Origin: Persicimonas caeni
Lineage (GTDB): Bacteria > Myxococcota_A > Bradymonadia > Bradymonadales > Bradymonadaceae
Assembly (NCBI RefSeq): GCF_006517175.1
Contig: NZ_CP041186.1
Location: forward strand, 2,507,001 to 2,571,000
DNA length: 64,000 nt
Direction of reading: 5' to 3'
Under the pieces are notes generated by a model that was not told the origin of the DNA, searched no databases, and saw nothing but the letters and a program-made list of their open reading frames with translations. The position numbers and the translations under genes are program-made. Below are positions 36,685 to 64,000 of this stretch, piece by piece (positions within the stretch are counted from its first letter, which is position 1; each line of letters opens with the position of its first letter).

Positions 36685-36702
36685 TAGACCAGTCTATATA
36701 AT
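36685..36702 (-). promoter_or_regulatory. LmrA/YxaF-type TetR operator before the reductase pair
   Basis: Read leftward the site is ATTATATAGACTGGTCTA. It matches, at every position, the B. subtilis LmrA/QdoR box as I recall it (AWTATAtagaNYGgTCTA). It lies 35 bp before the reductase start codon. Confidence 0.7.
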
Positions 36703-36710
36703 TTCGATGG

Positions 36711-36830
36711 TAAAAAAGTGAAGGAGTGAAGGAGCGAAAAAGTGAAGAAGCGAAAAAGCGAAAGAGTAAAAAGCGAAAGAGTAAAAAGCGAAAGAGTAAA
36801 AAGCGAAAAAGAAAGAGAGCGAAGGCGTTG
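36711..36830. repeat. Purine-rich microsatellite-like tract
   Basis: About 120 bases almost free of pyrimidines on the + strand, built of degenerate GAGTAAAAAGCGAAA units (15 bp, three near-exact copies in the middle) with GAAGGAGTGAAGGAGC variants at the left. It lies between the tetR stop and the reductase operator. A Lys/Arg-rich frame across it is low complexity, not a gene. Confidence 0.85.
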
Positions 36831-57827: not shown

Positions 57828-58543
<716 letters not shown>

Positions 58544-58547
<4 letters not shown>

Positions 58548-59770
58548 TCGTAGAACCTCATTGCTTCTGCCGGGGCCATTTGCGAGGCGCGCCAGGCGGG
58601 ATAGGCCGCGCTGAGCATCACGGAGAGGAACACCGTGGCGGTCGCGCCGAGCCACTTAACGGGGTTGATTTCGCTGCGCATGATCATGTCGCTCATATTG
58701 ACGCCGGCGAGCTCCATGTCGACGCCGTACATCTCGGCCGTGTTGATGCCGACGTCGGCGATATACAGGTGGATGCCCAGCCCGATGCCAAAGCCGATGG
58801 CGATCGAGATGGTCGCCATCAGGGCGGTCTCCCAGAAGATCAGCTTACCCACCCGCCCCGGCGTCATGCCGATGGCGTTGAGCAGGCCGAACTCGCGCAC
58901 GCGCTCCATGACCGCCATCAAAAACGTGTTGGCGATGGCGAAGACGACCACGATGAAGACCACGATCATGTAGATGTAGCCGAAGGCCTCATCCATCTGG
59001 ATAAAGCCGACCATCTCGGGGACGGCCTCCTGCCAGGTGAGCACCTCCAAGCCCCGGCCCTCGAGGGCGGTCTTGGCGCGCTCGGCGACCTGTTCGTGAG
59101 CCACCGCCTCGTCGGTGAGCAGGCCGAATTGGGTCAGCTGGCCCTCCATGCTCACCGCCTTCTGGGCGGCCGCCAGGGTCGTGTAGGCCATGCTCTCCCC
59201 CATGCCCGCCGCGTCGAGGATGCCGTCGAGGCGAAAGAGGGCTCGCGTCACCTCGCCGTCGGGCGTCGAGGCGGTCAAGACGACCTTGTCGCCGCGCTCG
59301 AGGCCGAGTTTGTCGACGAGCTTCTCGCTCAGCACGATGGGATGGTCGAATTCGTCGGAGAAGAACTCGCCGCTGTCGAGGTCCTCGGTGAGGTCGGCGA
59401 GCTTCGCCTCCTGGTCGAGGTCGACGCCCATCAGGCGCACCGGCTCGTTGCCGCGTGAGCTCGTGGCCAGGCCGTTGATGACCACGCGCGGGATGACCGC
59501 GTCGATGCCTGCGACCCCTTCTAGCGCCTTTTGCGCGGCCTGGGGTCGTTCGATGACGATGTCACTCGACTGGGTCTCCCACCAGCCGTCGCCGTGCACG
59601 AGCACTTCGCCACCTGCGCCCTCGGCGGCGGCGTCGAGCATCTTGGTGTAGGTGTCCTCGCTGATGCCCATCGACACCAGCATCAGCGCGTAGCTCAGGA
59701 TGATCGCCGAGCAGATGATCAGGGTACGGGGGCGATTGCGCCACAAGTTGCGCCAGGCTAATTTCAGCAT
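58544..59770 (-). CDS. FtsX/LolC-like permease, second of pair
   Basis: 408 residues from the ATG at 59770 (GGAGGA upstream). There is one N-terminal span (RTLIICSAIILSYALMLVSM), a periplasmic domain of about 230 residues and three C-terminal spans, the FtsX/MacB topology. The C-terminal part has MERVREFGLLNAIGMTPGRV, the cytosolic coupling helix of the family. It differs in sequence from the upstream permease, so the two probably form a heterodimer like LolC/LolE. The start is one base after the upstream stop. Confidence 0.9.
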
Positions 59771-59771
59771 T

Positions 59772-61037
59772 TTAGTTCCTCCCCGCGATGGCCGAGGTGA
59801 TATCGATCCCGATGGCCTTGGCCGCCGGCCACAGCCCACACAGAATCGCCACGCCGAGCATGACGAGCAGCGGCTCGAGCACGATCTCGGCGTTCAATCC
59901 GAAGTAGAGGCGCTCGGAGAACGAGATCCCCATCCAGGTAAAGTCGGTGTTGGTGGCAAAGGCGGTCATGTCGAGCCCGTTGACGGCGTGGTGCCAGGCC
60001 AGCCCACCGCCCAGGGCGGTGCCGACGAGCGCGCCGACGAAGCTCAACAGGAGCGTCTCGGCCAGAATCACCATGAACAGGCGCCGGGGCGTCACCCCGA
60101 TGGCCATCATCACGCCGAATTCGCGGCGCCGCTCCAGCGCGCTCATGCGCTGGGTGTTCAAAAGCCCCAGGCTGGCGAGCAGGTAGAGGATGAAGAACAT
60201 CGCAATATTGCTGGCGTCGCTCAGCTCGAGCATCTGGGCGATCTGGGGGCGCGCCTGTTGCCAGGAGCGCACGACCAGGTCGTGTTCGTCGGTGTCGTAC
60301 GCGTCGATTTTGGGGGCCATCTGGGCGACGACCCCCTCGGCCTCGGCCGGGTTGTCGGTCTTGACCACGATCTCGTGGACCTGCCCGTCGAGCGCGCCCA
60401 CGTATTGGGCGTCCTCCAGGTGGACGTAGGCCGCCTGGCGGTCGACCATGGAGTTGCCGGTCTTGACGACGCCGACCACCTTCAAAAGATCGTTGCCCAG
60501 CGAGCCGTCGGAGGCCTCCAAAAAGACGACCAGCTCGGCGCCCAGATCGACCTCGAGTTGGCGGGCCAGCCCCTCGCCCAAGACCACCTCGCGCGGAGCG
60601 GGCGGCGGCTCGGGGTCGTCACTGAGCCACTCACCTTTGACGACGGCGTCGGTGATGGGCGTGGCGGCCGCCTCAGCCTGCGCGTCGACGCCCAGAAGCT
60701 TCGAGACCTGCGAGCGCTGCTCGTTGCCGATCAGCCCGTACAGGTTGATGCGCGGGGCGGCGGCGCGCACGCCTTCGGTCTGCTCGACCTCTTCGAGCAT
60801 GCCCTCTTCGAGGGCGAACGCCTCGTAGATCGACGGCTCGTCGACGTAGGCCTTGCGCTGGATGAGCGCCTGGCCGGTGTCGAGCGCGGTCGCTCCGCGC
60901 ACCATCGCCCCGAAGAAGCCCTCCATATAGGCCATCGTCCAGACCATCAGACCCACGGCGACGGCCACGCCCGCGGCGGTCAGAATGCTTCGCCAGCGGT
61001 TCCTGGCGAGGTTTCTCCAAGCTAATTTCGTAATCAT
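59772..61037 (-). CDS. FtsX/LolC-like permease, first of pair
   Basis: 421 residues. MITKLAWRNLARNRWRSILT is the typical N-terminal amphipathic start before the first span. A periplasmic domain (about 45-270), then three spans around SALERRREFGVMMAIGVTPR and a last helix near LLVMLGVAILCGLWPAAKAI. With its partner it would form the membrane unit of a type VII-like ABC machine acting on periplasmic lipids, lipoproteins or peptides. It lies 39 bp downstream of the LolA-like gene in the same operon. Confidence 0.9.
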   Translation of the reverse strand: MITKLAWRNLARNRWRSILTAAGVAVAVGLMVWTMAYMEGFFGAMVRGATALDTGQALIQRKAYVDEPSIYEAFALEEGMLEEVEQTEGVRAAAPRINLYGLIGNEQRSQVSKLLGVDAQAEAAATPITDAVVKGEWLSDDPEPPPAPREVVLGEGLARQLEVDLGAELVVFLEASDGSLGNDLLKVVGVVKTGNSMVDRQAAYVHLEDAQYVGALDGQVHEIVVKTDNPAEAEGVVAQMAPKIDAYDTDEHDLVVRSWQQARPQIAQMLELSDASNIAMFFILYLLASLGLLNTQRMSALERRREFGVMMAIGVTPRRLFMVILAETLLLSFVGALVGTALGGGLAWHHAVNGLDMTAFATNTDFTWMGISFSERLYFGLNAEIVLEPLLVMLGVAILCGLWPAAKAIGIDITSAIAGRN

Positions 61038-61076: not shown

Positions 61077-61904
61077 TTAGCGGCGACGCGCCACGCGACG
61101 CAGCCCGCGCTTGGTGAACATGCCTTTGTCCACGTCGGCGCCGAACTCCATCTCCTTGTACTCCACGCGTGTCTTCTCGCCTTTGTCCTCACCAGTCTGG
61201 GGCAGAAGCTCCATGACGGTGGGGATTCTGCGCCCGCCGAGTTCCTTGATGTTCGAGAACTTCATGACACGCACGACCTTGCCGTCGTCGAAGTACGAGG
61301 CCTCGACGGGCAACCACTCGTCGGCGGTCATCAGGTACTCGATCTTCTCCCAGACCACCGGCGCGCCCTTTTTGGGGGTCAGCGTCTCCTTGAGGTAACG
61401 CGTGCCGTCGACGGTCGCCCACGACAGCTTCGTCTCGTAGTCCTCCTCGAAGCTCGTCTCGCGCATCAGGTCGTCGTTGGTGAAGTGGCTGCCCATCCAA
61501 CTGTCGCTCAAAAGGCCCGAGGGGATGCGGATGAGCCGGTCGGCGCGCGGGGCGTAGTTCCACAGGCCGTCGTCGTTTCGCAGCGTGGCCGTGCCCGCCT
61601 CGCGGGTGGGCTTGCGGATGACCATCAAGGCCTGATCGTCGCCGCGGGTCCACTGCTCGATCTGCAGGGTGCGCTTGCCGCGGTCGGTCACCACGGTCAT
61701 CTCGATGGTGCCGTGCGACGAATCGGCGCGGTACAGATCATCGAGCTTGTCAGTCACCTCCTCGACCGACGGCAGCTTTTGTTCCTTCGCCTTCTGCGCT
61801 TTGGCGGTTTTGGCTTTGTCGCCATCGTCTTGAGCCAGCGCCGGCGCACCCAGCGCCAGCATCAGGCCTACGAGCAACAGGCTTTTCAGTTTCATTCGTT
61901 TCAT
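61077..61904 (-). CDS. LolA-like outer membrane lipoprotein-sorting protein
   Basis: 275 residues from the ATG at 61904, which overlaps the tetR stop (ATGA) and has GGAGG upstream. A signal peptide (cut near ALAQ) is followed by a Lys/Ala linker. The domain SVEEVTDKLDDLYRADSSHG, MVIRKPTREAGTATLRNDDG, LWNYAPRADRLIRIP and FTNDDLMRETSFEEDYE matches the LolA/LppX-like fold of outer membrane lipoprotein-sorting proteins. In comparable clusters it partners with RND/MMPL or ABC exporters and an outer-membrane barrel. It probably carries lipid across the periplasm. Confidence 0.9.
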   Translation of the reverse strand: MKRMKLKSLLLVGLMLALGAPALAQDDGDKAKTAKAQKAKEQKLPSVEEVTDKLDDLYRADSSHGTIEMTVVTDRGKRTLQIEQWTRGDDQALMVIRKPTREAGTATLRNDDGLWNYAPRADRLIRIPSGLLSDSWMGSHFTNDDLMRETSFEEDYETKLSWATVDGTRYLKETLTPKKGAPVVWEKIEYLMTADEWLPVEASYFDDGKVVRVMKFSNIKELGGRRIPTVMELLPQTGEDKGEKTRVEYKEMEFGADVDKGMFTKRGLRRVARRR

Positions 61905-62545
61905 TGCGTTACCTCCACGTTGGATGCGGGGCTCAATAGTCTCTTCATCGCGTCGATATGTTGCTCCATGAGCTCTTGGAGTTCCTCCTCGCTGCACTCG
62001 CCCCAACGCTCCAAGAGCCAGTGGTCGAAGACCGAGTCGACCGCGATGGCCAACTGGATCAGAAAGTCGATGGACAGGTCGGTGCGCACCCGGCCGAACT
62101 CGCGTCCGCGCTCGAGCAGTTCACGCATGACCTGCTTTCCCCACTCCATCGTCTCGGCGCCGGGCGCCTCGGGATCGTTGGGCTCCATGACCTGATGGAA
62201 GCTCTTGGCCAGCCGGATATACAGCTCGTTGTTGCGAAGCTGGTCGAGCGAGCGCCGGCTGTAGTCCTGCAGGTACTCCCAGAAGTTCTCGGCGGTGATC
62301 GCGTCGACGTCGAACCCGCCGGTCATGGCGAGCATGCGCTCGGTAGCGTAGCGCAGGGTGGTGTCGAACAGGTCACGCTTGTCCTCGAAGTAGTAGTACA
62401 TCGAGCCTTTGCTGATGCCGGCCTTCTGGATGATCTGGTTGATCGAGGCGGCCTCGTAGCCCTTCTCGCCGAACTCCTCGGCGGCGGCGTCGAGGATTTG
62501 GCCCTGCTTGTCAGGGTCCAGGTTGTCGAATCGGGACGTTGCCAT
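61901..62545 (-). CDS. TetR-family repressor of the trafficking operon
   Basis: 214 residues. The HTH is AAAEEFGEKGYEAASINQIIQKAGISKGSMYYYFEDKRDLFD. The ligand domain is helical with HWLLERWGECSEEELQELME near the end. It is the first gene of the operon: its stop overlaps the start of the LolA-like gene. The start at 62545 lies six bases from an array of six 13-bp-spaced half-sites (62551-62633), an unusually extended operator, so autoregulation is very likely. No Shine-Dalgarno is seen. The ligand is unknown; fatty acids or other lipids would fit the regulon. Confidence 0.92.
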   Translation of the reverse strand: MATSRFDNLDPDKQGQILDAAAEEFGEKGYEAASINQIIQKAGISKGSMYYYFEDKRDLFDTTLRYATERMLAMTGGFDVDAITAENFWEYLQDYSRRSLDQLRNNELYIRLAKSFHQVMEPNDPEAPGAETMEWGKQVMRELLERGREFGRVRTDLSIDFLIQLAIAVDSVFDHWLLERWGECSEEELQELMEQHIDAMKRLLSPASNVEVTQ

Positions 62546-62550
62546 CTTGG

Positions 62551-62633
62551 GTAGACCTCATGGTTAGACTTTCGAGTTGGACCAGCCAGTTAGACCTTAG
62601 GGTTAGACTGACAGGTTAGACCAGCTGGTCTAA
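62551..62633 (-). promoter_or_regulatory. 13-bp-period operator array with terminal palindrome
   Basis: Half-sites begin at 62551 (GTAGACC), 62564 (TTAGACT), 62577 (TTGGACC), 62590 (TTAGACC), 62603 (TTAGACT) and 62616 (TTAGACC), each exactly 13 bp apart. The last is half of the perfect palindrome TTAGACCAGCTGGTCTAA (62616-62633). The half-site TAGACC also occurs in the operator of the other TetR gene at 36685. Confidence 0.8.
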
Positions 62634-62639
62634 AGGCGA

Positions 62640-62908
62640 CGATACAGAGATATTCGGGGGTGTCAAGCAATGAAAATCGAAGGGTTTGAAAAAGCGAGGG
62701 TCTCCTCTCCGCCTGCAGCGAAGCGGAAGGAAGGAGAGGATTAAGGAGAGGCGTCCTCTTCCACGTAGCGTAGCGAAGTGGAGGAGGACTCAGGAGGAGG
62801 CCCCTCCCTGTGCTCCCTCTCCACTACGCTGACGCTTCGTGGAAAGGGACGCCCCACCTCGCTCCGCCCCTCGCTATCGCGGGGGAGGAAGATGTCACTC
62901 GACTGGAC
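62640..62908. other. Non-coding gap with serial hairpins
   Basis: No gene is seen. It contains at least three stem-loops: TCCTCTCC with GGAGAGGA (62703-62710, 62733-62740), CCTCTTCCAC with GTGGAGGAGG (62755-62764, 62778-62787), and CCAC...GTGG around 62821-62842. The loops share AGCG-type sequence. They lie downstream of the aldehyde dehydrogenase gene and before the tetR operon, so they may terminate or process its transcript. Confidence 0.5.

Positions 62909-64000
<1,092 letters not shown>

Follow-up and report, generated by a model that had tools for sequence, protein, structure and literature searches.

A polarised row of overlapping dyads at 13-bp steps as the probable operator of a TetR-family gene in Persicimonas caeni

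Introduction

Few bacterial switches are in wider use than the TetR repressors, which bind DNA as symmetric dimers at operators commonly depicted as a single dyad or a pair of dyads. QacR places a pair of dimers on overlapping dyads, its IR1 site reportedly carrying TAGACC/GGTCTA arms. MtrR, the TetR repressor of an efflux pump, is said to have an operator of pseudo-direct repeats, and SlmA, another TetR-family protein, has reportedly been proposed to spread along the DNA, starting at specific sites. The operator of EthR, described in mycobacteria, lies between divergent genes; it is said to span 55 bp, which would amount to about 14 bp per dimer, and it is not known to be a regular 13-bp array.

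Available structural and biochemical reports include DarR, a pair of dimers on overlapping dyads that interleave with their centres about 3 bp apart; its recognition helix (K-G-x-x-Y-Y) contacts, through Lys, a G four bases from the dyad centre and, through Gly, a T (PMC10636190). For FadRSa the operator decides whether one dimer or two are bound (PMC6449355), and cooperative operator binding of EthR from Mycobacterium tuberculosis by several dimers, as a homo-octamer, is mentioned in PMC5403819, citing Engohang-Ndong 2004. A search of open-licence papers returned pair-of-dimers operators and the EthR octamer, and no array comparable to the one described here. Multi-dimer TetR operators are already known, while a polarised, cross-phylum 13-bp array of variable length appears to be undescribed. 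The array reported here from Persicimonas caeni is, on comparative sequence evidence and with a probability of about three in four, the autoregulatory operator of the adjacent TetR protein, in which six overlapping dyads follow one another in a polarised row, one per 13 bp.

The tetR operon

The window is the whole stretch of 64,000 nucleotides that was analysed (positions 2507001-2571000 of an 8.05-Mb single-contig genome), and all coordinates below are those within it. The nearest relative with a name that was found is Lujinxingia vulgaris (Bradymonadales). The genes concerned are as follows.

61901-62545, minus strand: tetR, 214 aa, with a TetR_N HTH domain (PF00440, E 1.5e-17) and recognition helix SKGSMYYYF; presumed binder of the array
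61077-61904, minus strand: lolA-like gene (PF17131, LolA_like, E 1.3e-42), with an ATGA overlap with the tetR stop
59772-61037, minus strand: MacB_PCD/FtsX-type permease 1
58544-59779, minus strand: FtsX-type permease 2
57828-58541, minus strand: ABC ATPase, LolD/MacB-like

The AF2 model of the TetR protein (mean pLDDT 91) has an all-helical TetR fold that matches TetR structures in the PDB, and MtrR of Neisseria gonorrhoeae is found among both its nearest sequence relatives with a structure and its structural neighbours. A preliminary description of this DNA had spoken of a lipid-trafficking operon; the LolA_like match agrees with that designation, whereas the ABC proteins stay below the curated LolC/D/E cut-offs (110.6 and 110 bits against 362 for lolCE, and 210 against 308 for LolD), so that a role in lipid trafficking or lipoprotein transport is a family-level guess. 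The order lolA-permease-permease-ATPase is kept in a large share of related loci, as far as the contigs reach, and other related loci carry an ABC ATPase, a cytochrome P450 or IucA/IucC after tetR. Since the cargo genes vary among loci, the array belongs to the TetR subfamily.

Sequence and geometry of the array

A consensus promoter scan of 62500-62920 returned one promoter against 0.1 expected in shuffles, and transcription is expected to start near 62630-62633. The elements of the promoter and of the array are listed in the order in which they follow one another on the tetR strand.

62661-62666, minus strand: -35 hexamer TTGACA of the tetR promoter (consensus scan)
62639-62644, minus strand: -10 hexamer TATCGT, 16-bp spacer (consensus scan)
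62616-62633, minus strand: candidate operator site 1, promoter-proximal, perfect palindrome TTAGACC-AGCT-GGTCTAA; a palindrome of like kind is present in 73/83 loci
62603-62620, minus strand: candidate operator site 2, TCTAACC-TGTC-AGTCTAA, in 13-bp register
62590-62607, minus strand: candidate operator site 3, TCTAACC-CTAA-GGTCTAA, in 13-bp register
62577-62594, minus strand: candidate operator site 4, TCTAACT-GGCT-GGTCCAA, in 13-bp register
62564-62581, minus strand: candidate operator site 5, TCCAACT-CGAA-AGTCTAA, in 13-bp register
62551-62568, minus strand: candidate operator site 6, TCTAACC-ATGA-GGTCTAC, placed by sequence and spacing

Read along the tetR strand, TTGACA (62666-62661) is followed by 16 bp, TATCGT (62644-62639), 5 bp and the palindrome, after which come CCTGTCA-GTCTAA, CCCTAAG-GTCTAA, CTGGCTG-GTCCAA, CTCGAAA-GTCTAA, CCATGAG-GTCTAC and then the ATG. 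The six TTAGAC-type units, exact 13-bp period and 18-bp palindrome of the preliminary description were verified in both sequence and spacing: GTAGAC at 62551, TTAGAC at 62564, TTGGAC at 62577 and TTAGAC at 62590, 62603 and 62616, all steps being 13 bp and two of the six units bearing a single substitution. The perfect 18-bp palindrome TTAGACCAGCTGGTCTAA (62616-62633) is made up of the unit at 62616 and an inverted TTAGAC. The array had been said to end in this palindrome; as tetR lies on the minus strand, the order is the reverse with respect to transcription, the palindrome being the promoter-proximal first site from which the array runs toward the ATG (62545). Units 2-6 occupy the leader as far as the likely ribosome-binding site, and the GAGG of site 6, about 10 bases 5' of the ATG, may double as that ribosome-binding site. 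The six dyads span 83 bp, a length sufficient for several dimers, as in an EthR-like operator.

When a run was defined as six 6-mers with at most one mismatch to the first and a constant period of 8-30, such a run was found in none of 40 shuffled windows, against three starts in the real window; together with the conservation described below, this rules out a chance repeat. Within the 8.05-Mb genome the palindrome with 0-1 mismatch occurs nowhere else, its two-mismatch matches show no excess over a reversed control, and four of the five best matches to the two-unit pattern are this array itself. With no other strong site in its own genome, the array looks local and does not look like a genome-wide regulon. 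Viral contigs contained no exact match.

Other repeats are also present in the window. A self-match scan detected strong short-period tandem repeats at about 6462 (period 31) and at 36700-36760 (period 15), and imperfect inverted repeats lie at 62700-62900, between the tetR promoter and an aldehyde dehydrogenase gene.

Conservation among TetR orthologues

A TetR protein search of 58 related genomes, in which each gene was read in its own direction, found relatives in 17, and the closest orthologues (34-48% identity, same class) carry an array of the same layout upstream of tetR. A profile from twelve TetR relatives yielded 80 loci out of 84,980 species genomes; most of these 80 relatives, from several phyla, share the array upstream of tetR, the same layout being found at orthologues in Myxococcota, Gemmatimonadota, Chloroflexota, Acidobacteriota and one Paenibacillus. 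The preliminary description had proposed a search of related genomes for the array upstream of orthologous tetR genes and had named loss of the 13-bp spacing in relatives as the outcome that would speak against it; the layout was found, and the spacing turned out to be conserved across phyla. As bacteria of several phyla, only distantly related, share the layout, the array looks like a multi-repressor docking strip and not like a chance repeat.

A palindrome above the 99% shuffle level is present in 73 of 83 upstream regions, its spacer being 4 bp long in 65 of them and 3 bp in 8. At the orthologous loci (n=73) the best promoter-like -10 mostly ends no more than a few bases from the first base of the palindrome, and in most loci a sigma-70-like -10 element touches or overlaps the start of the palindrome. 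In the 4-bp class the averaged GGTC match peaks at +13 (0.82) and +26 (0.65) over a background of 0.26. In a non-redundant set of 43 loci with a 4-bp spacer (one representative per 55% identity TetR cluster), a GGTC-like unit, counted as present at 3 or more of the 4 letters, occurs at +13 in 36/43, at +26 in 22/36, at +39 in 7/31 and at +52 in 4/22 loci, against a background of about 6% and a median of 3% over offsets. A promoter-side mirror site at -13 was observed in 10/43 loci, and farther ones in 0-3/43. The repeats thus extend toward the gene and mirror sites are scarce, which makes the array polarised. The number of dyads per locus varies from 1 to 7 (mean 2.5), and the six found here are the second highest number among the 65 loci with a four-base spacer. 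The palindrome stands alone in 7/43 non-redundant loci, so the extra sites are not essential; from the fourth site onward conservation is lower, and such sites could bind weakly or go unused.

A minority of orthologues (L037, L055, L068, L091, L099, L102 and L109) have a 3-bp dyad spacer, often with a 12-bp step. Of the 3-bp-spacer loci, L055, L099 and L109 step 12 bp, and L044 and L068 mix 13 and 12; the 13-bp step is therefore not universal. A strict rule by which the period equals 9 plus the spacer fits the N4 loci (13) as well as L055, L099 and L109 (12), is broken by the N3 loci L044 and L068, and is kept as a tendency.

Each repeat as part of an overlapping dyad

Alignment of the units gave the consensus (G/A)GTC(T/G)AACC-RNNY. 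Lone half-sites would be expected to keep ACC and the ends of the spacer alike in every unit; if each unit forms a dyad with the next, both should be lost in the last. AC at unit positions 7-8 was found in 74% of 100 internal units against 23% of 60 last units (Fisher 4.6e-10), a difference to be read with the caveat that the last unit is frequently close to the ribosome-binding site, whose presence alone could alter the sequence of that unit. Within loci of the non-redundant set the comparison was 23 against 2 in the expected direction (Wilcoxon 3e-5), and R-N-N-Y spacers are confined to internal units. Since the ACC arm is kept only where another repeat follows, the comparison indicates that the repeats are overlapping ACC-N4-GGT dyads and not lone half-sites, neighbouring dyads sharing a 9-bp GGTCTAACC element. 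The units had previously been taken for plain half-sites, and this has to be revised, as each unit makes a further, imperfect dyad with its neighbour; the accompanying idea of a phased TetR operator array with ordered dimers sharing half-site DNA is favoured by the same retention of ACC before a following GGT. Adjacent internal units are alike in 78% of their core letters, against 30% (near chance) for the two middle letters of the spacer, which points to selection and not to recent tandem duplication.

Comparison with described operators

The recognition helix SKGSMYYYF resembles the K-G-x-x-Y-Y of DarR, and the G at +4 from the dyad centre, which is invariant in the units, fits the DarR Lys-guanine contact. 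With QacR, DarR and FadRSa as a class the array shares the presence of more than one overlapping dyad, as indicated by the last-unit ACC test. Theirs, however, are two interleaved dimers on one site of about 20-28 bp, whereas here the dyads do not interleave and up to seven of them follow one another end to end at a centre-to-centre distance of 13 bp, all on the same side of the promoter. The likeness to EthR lies in the multi-dimer operator and is one of description. SlmA differs in that it acts at scattered single chromosomal sites in division control, with no known operator array, and for MtrR no multi-unit 13-bp array is described in PMC8053128.

Arrays found by DNA pattern

A search for the pattern TAGACC-N4-GGTCNAACC-N4-GGTC, allowing a single mismatch at most, covered 379 genomes of the phylum with no protein reference. 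The pattern was found at 24 places against roughly 16 for the reversed control pattern; the bare number of one-mismatch matches is thus not telling, and it is the position that tells. A TetR gene on the same strand, of the subfamily or a more distant branch, adjoins 21 of the 24 places, in 19 of which the tetR start lies 40-182 bp downstream. Two of these, the divergent tetRs of L181 and L190, encode distant TetRs (E about 1e-14) and carry TTGACC-N4-GGTCAAACC-N4-GGTCAAA with a 13-bp step. At L191 (position about 1499-1530) the array comes after tetR and directly before a lolA-like gene (PF17131), which ties it to the operon and not to tetR alone, and at L195 it precedes a gene with Cu2_monooxygenase domains. 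These arrays before non-tetR genes, lolA-like and copper monooxygenase, suggest that the array marks regulon members.

Arrays of other kinds were also encountered. Upstream of another tetR of the genome of the window (L133, G000:C1 at about 6107.7 kb, minus strand) lie two head-to-tail operator-like palindromes TAAACACGTTTAA, 13 bp apart and of a different motif, which suggests that 13 bp may be a distance at which TetR proteins pack more generally. At L023 (G023:C668), some 30-100 bp before a tetR paralogue, there are four tandem 16-bp units TGACYAAAYRGTCAYA, each a dyad in itself, which constitute a non-overlapping, different TetR-type array.

Alternative explanations

It is improbable, on balance, that the palindrome is the one working operator and that the other units are decoys, buffering repressor locally or scarcely binding it. 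The fall in conservation with distance (36/43, 22/36, 7/31, 4/22) and the seven loci with the palindrome alone would suit such an arrangement, but across phyla 84% of the non-redundant loci retain the second site, exactly in register and with both arms under selection, and an idle second site is hard to explain in view of this. Direct-repeat half-sites read singly by subunits, or a one-orientation GGTC filament with no dyad per repeat, would account for the appearance of the units by eye and for GGTC being stronger than ACC at every repeat; this is nevertheless very unlikely, as ACC and the RNNY spacer are present before the next GGTC and mostly gone in the last unit, and TetR proteins bind as symmetric dimers.

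The location of the array in the expected 5' leader, over the likely ribosome-binding site, would also be compatible with repeats that act in the leader RNA, through hairpins or translational control of tetR, and not as DNA sites. Predicted folding is ordinary (z -1.28), however, the letters and not pairing alone are kept across phyla, and the first site is a canonical TetR-type palindrome, all of which render an RNA role highly improbable. An Rfam search of 62543-62633 gave no family match; the low-scoring Rfam miRNA matches at 62701-62893, below gathering, fall in a separate inverted-repeat stretch and are chance matches. Scarcely credible is a functionless minisatellite grown by slippage, such as head-to-tail copies of one period, differing in number between species, might suggest: it is contradicted by the unrelated spacer middles of adjacent units (30% against 78% core identity) and by a register conserved across phyla at a fixed place beside one gene family. 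A generic trait of all TetR genes was likewise rejected, as 41 others in four genomes gave mostly codon-like 12/18-bp signals. Among these 41, 13-bp operator-like tandems were seen at L133 and L147 only, in an untargeted periodicity scan that is itself weak (p<=0.05 in only 32/83 test loci, 16 of these with period 13).

Proposed mechanism

On the preferred reading of the array as the autoregulatory operator of the adjacent TetR protein, one dimer would occupy each site. The first dyad, the perfect palindrome, overlaps the expected transcription start just 3' of the -10 and is presumed to be the high-affinity nucleation site, from which dimers, placed end to end, would fill the row toward the gene. 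At 10.5 bp per turn a 13-bp step would set adjacent dimers 44 A apart and turn them by about 86 degrees; by geometric estimate the dimer centres would be about 60-70 A apart if they lie 30-40 A off axis, a distance at which contact is possible and no clash is obvious. The row of bound repressor would block RNA polymerase at initiation and in early elongation of the tetR-lolA-like-permease-permease-ATPase operon, and some ligand would release it. Filling would be cooperative, and the switch steep, only if neighbouring dimers touch or help one another via the DNA.

For the widespread TetR subfamily at large a further proposal is offered tentatively, with the odds judged to be somewhat against it: end-to-end dimers, each taking up 13 bp, would assemble into an ordered helical row that nucleates on the palindrome at the transcription start and grows mainly downstream into the leader, and the length of the array (2-7 sites) would tune repression and the slope of the response gene by gene. 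Furthermore, 13 bp per dimer could be a general TetR packing rule; the other-motif cases L133, L181 and L190 also step 13 bp.

Significance

The loci, conserved over several phyla, form a natural series in which the operators differ in having 1 to 7 phased dyads and are otherwise alike; the relation of operator copy number to cooperativity and switch slope is directly testable in it, and the loci provide ready-made parts for steep or graded switches. The array also serves as a DNA signature for finding the targets of this TetR subfamily, such as lolA-like ABC operons, P450s, siderophore-type genes and other ABC exporters. In addition, comparison of the recognition helices of the 3-bp and 4-bp classes could show how half-site spacing is set in TetR proteins.
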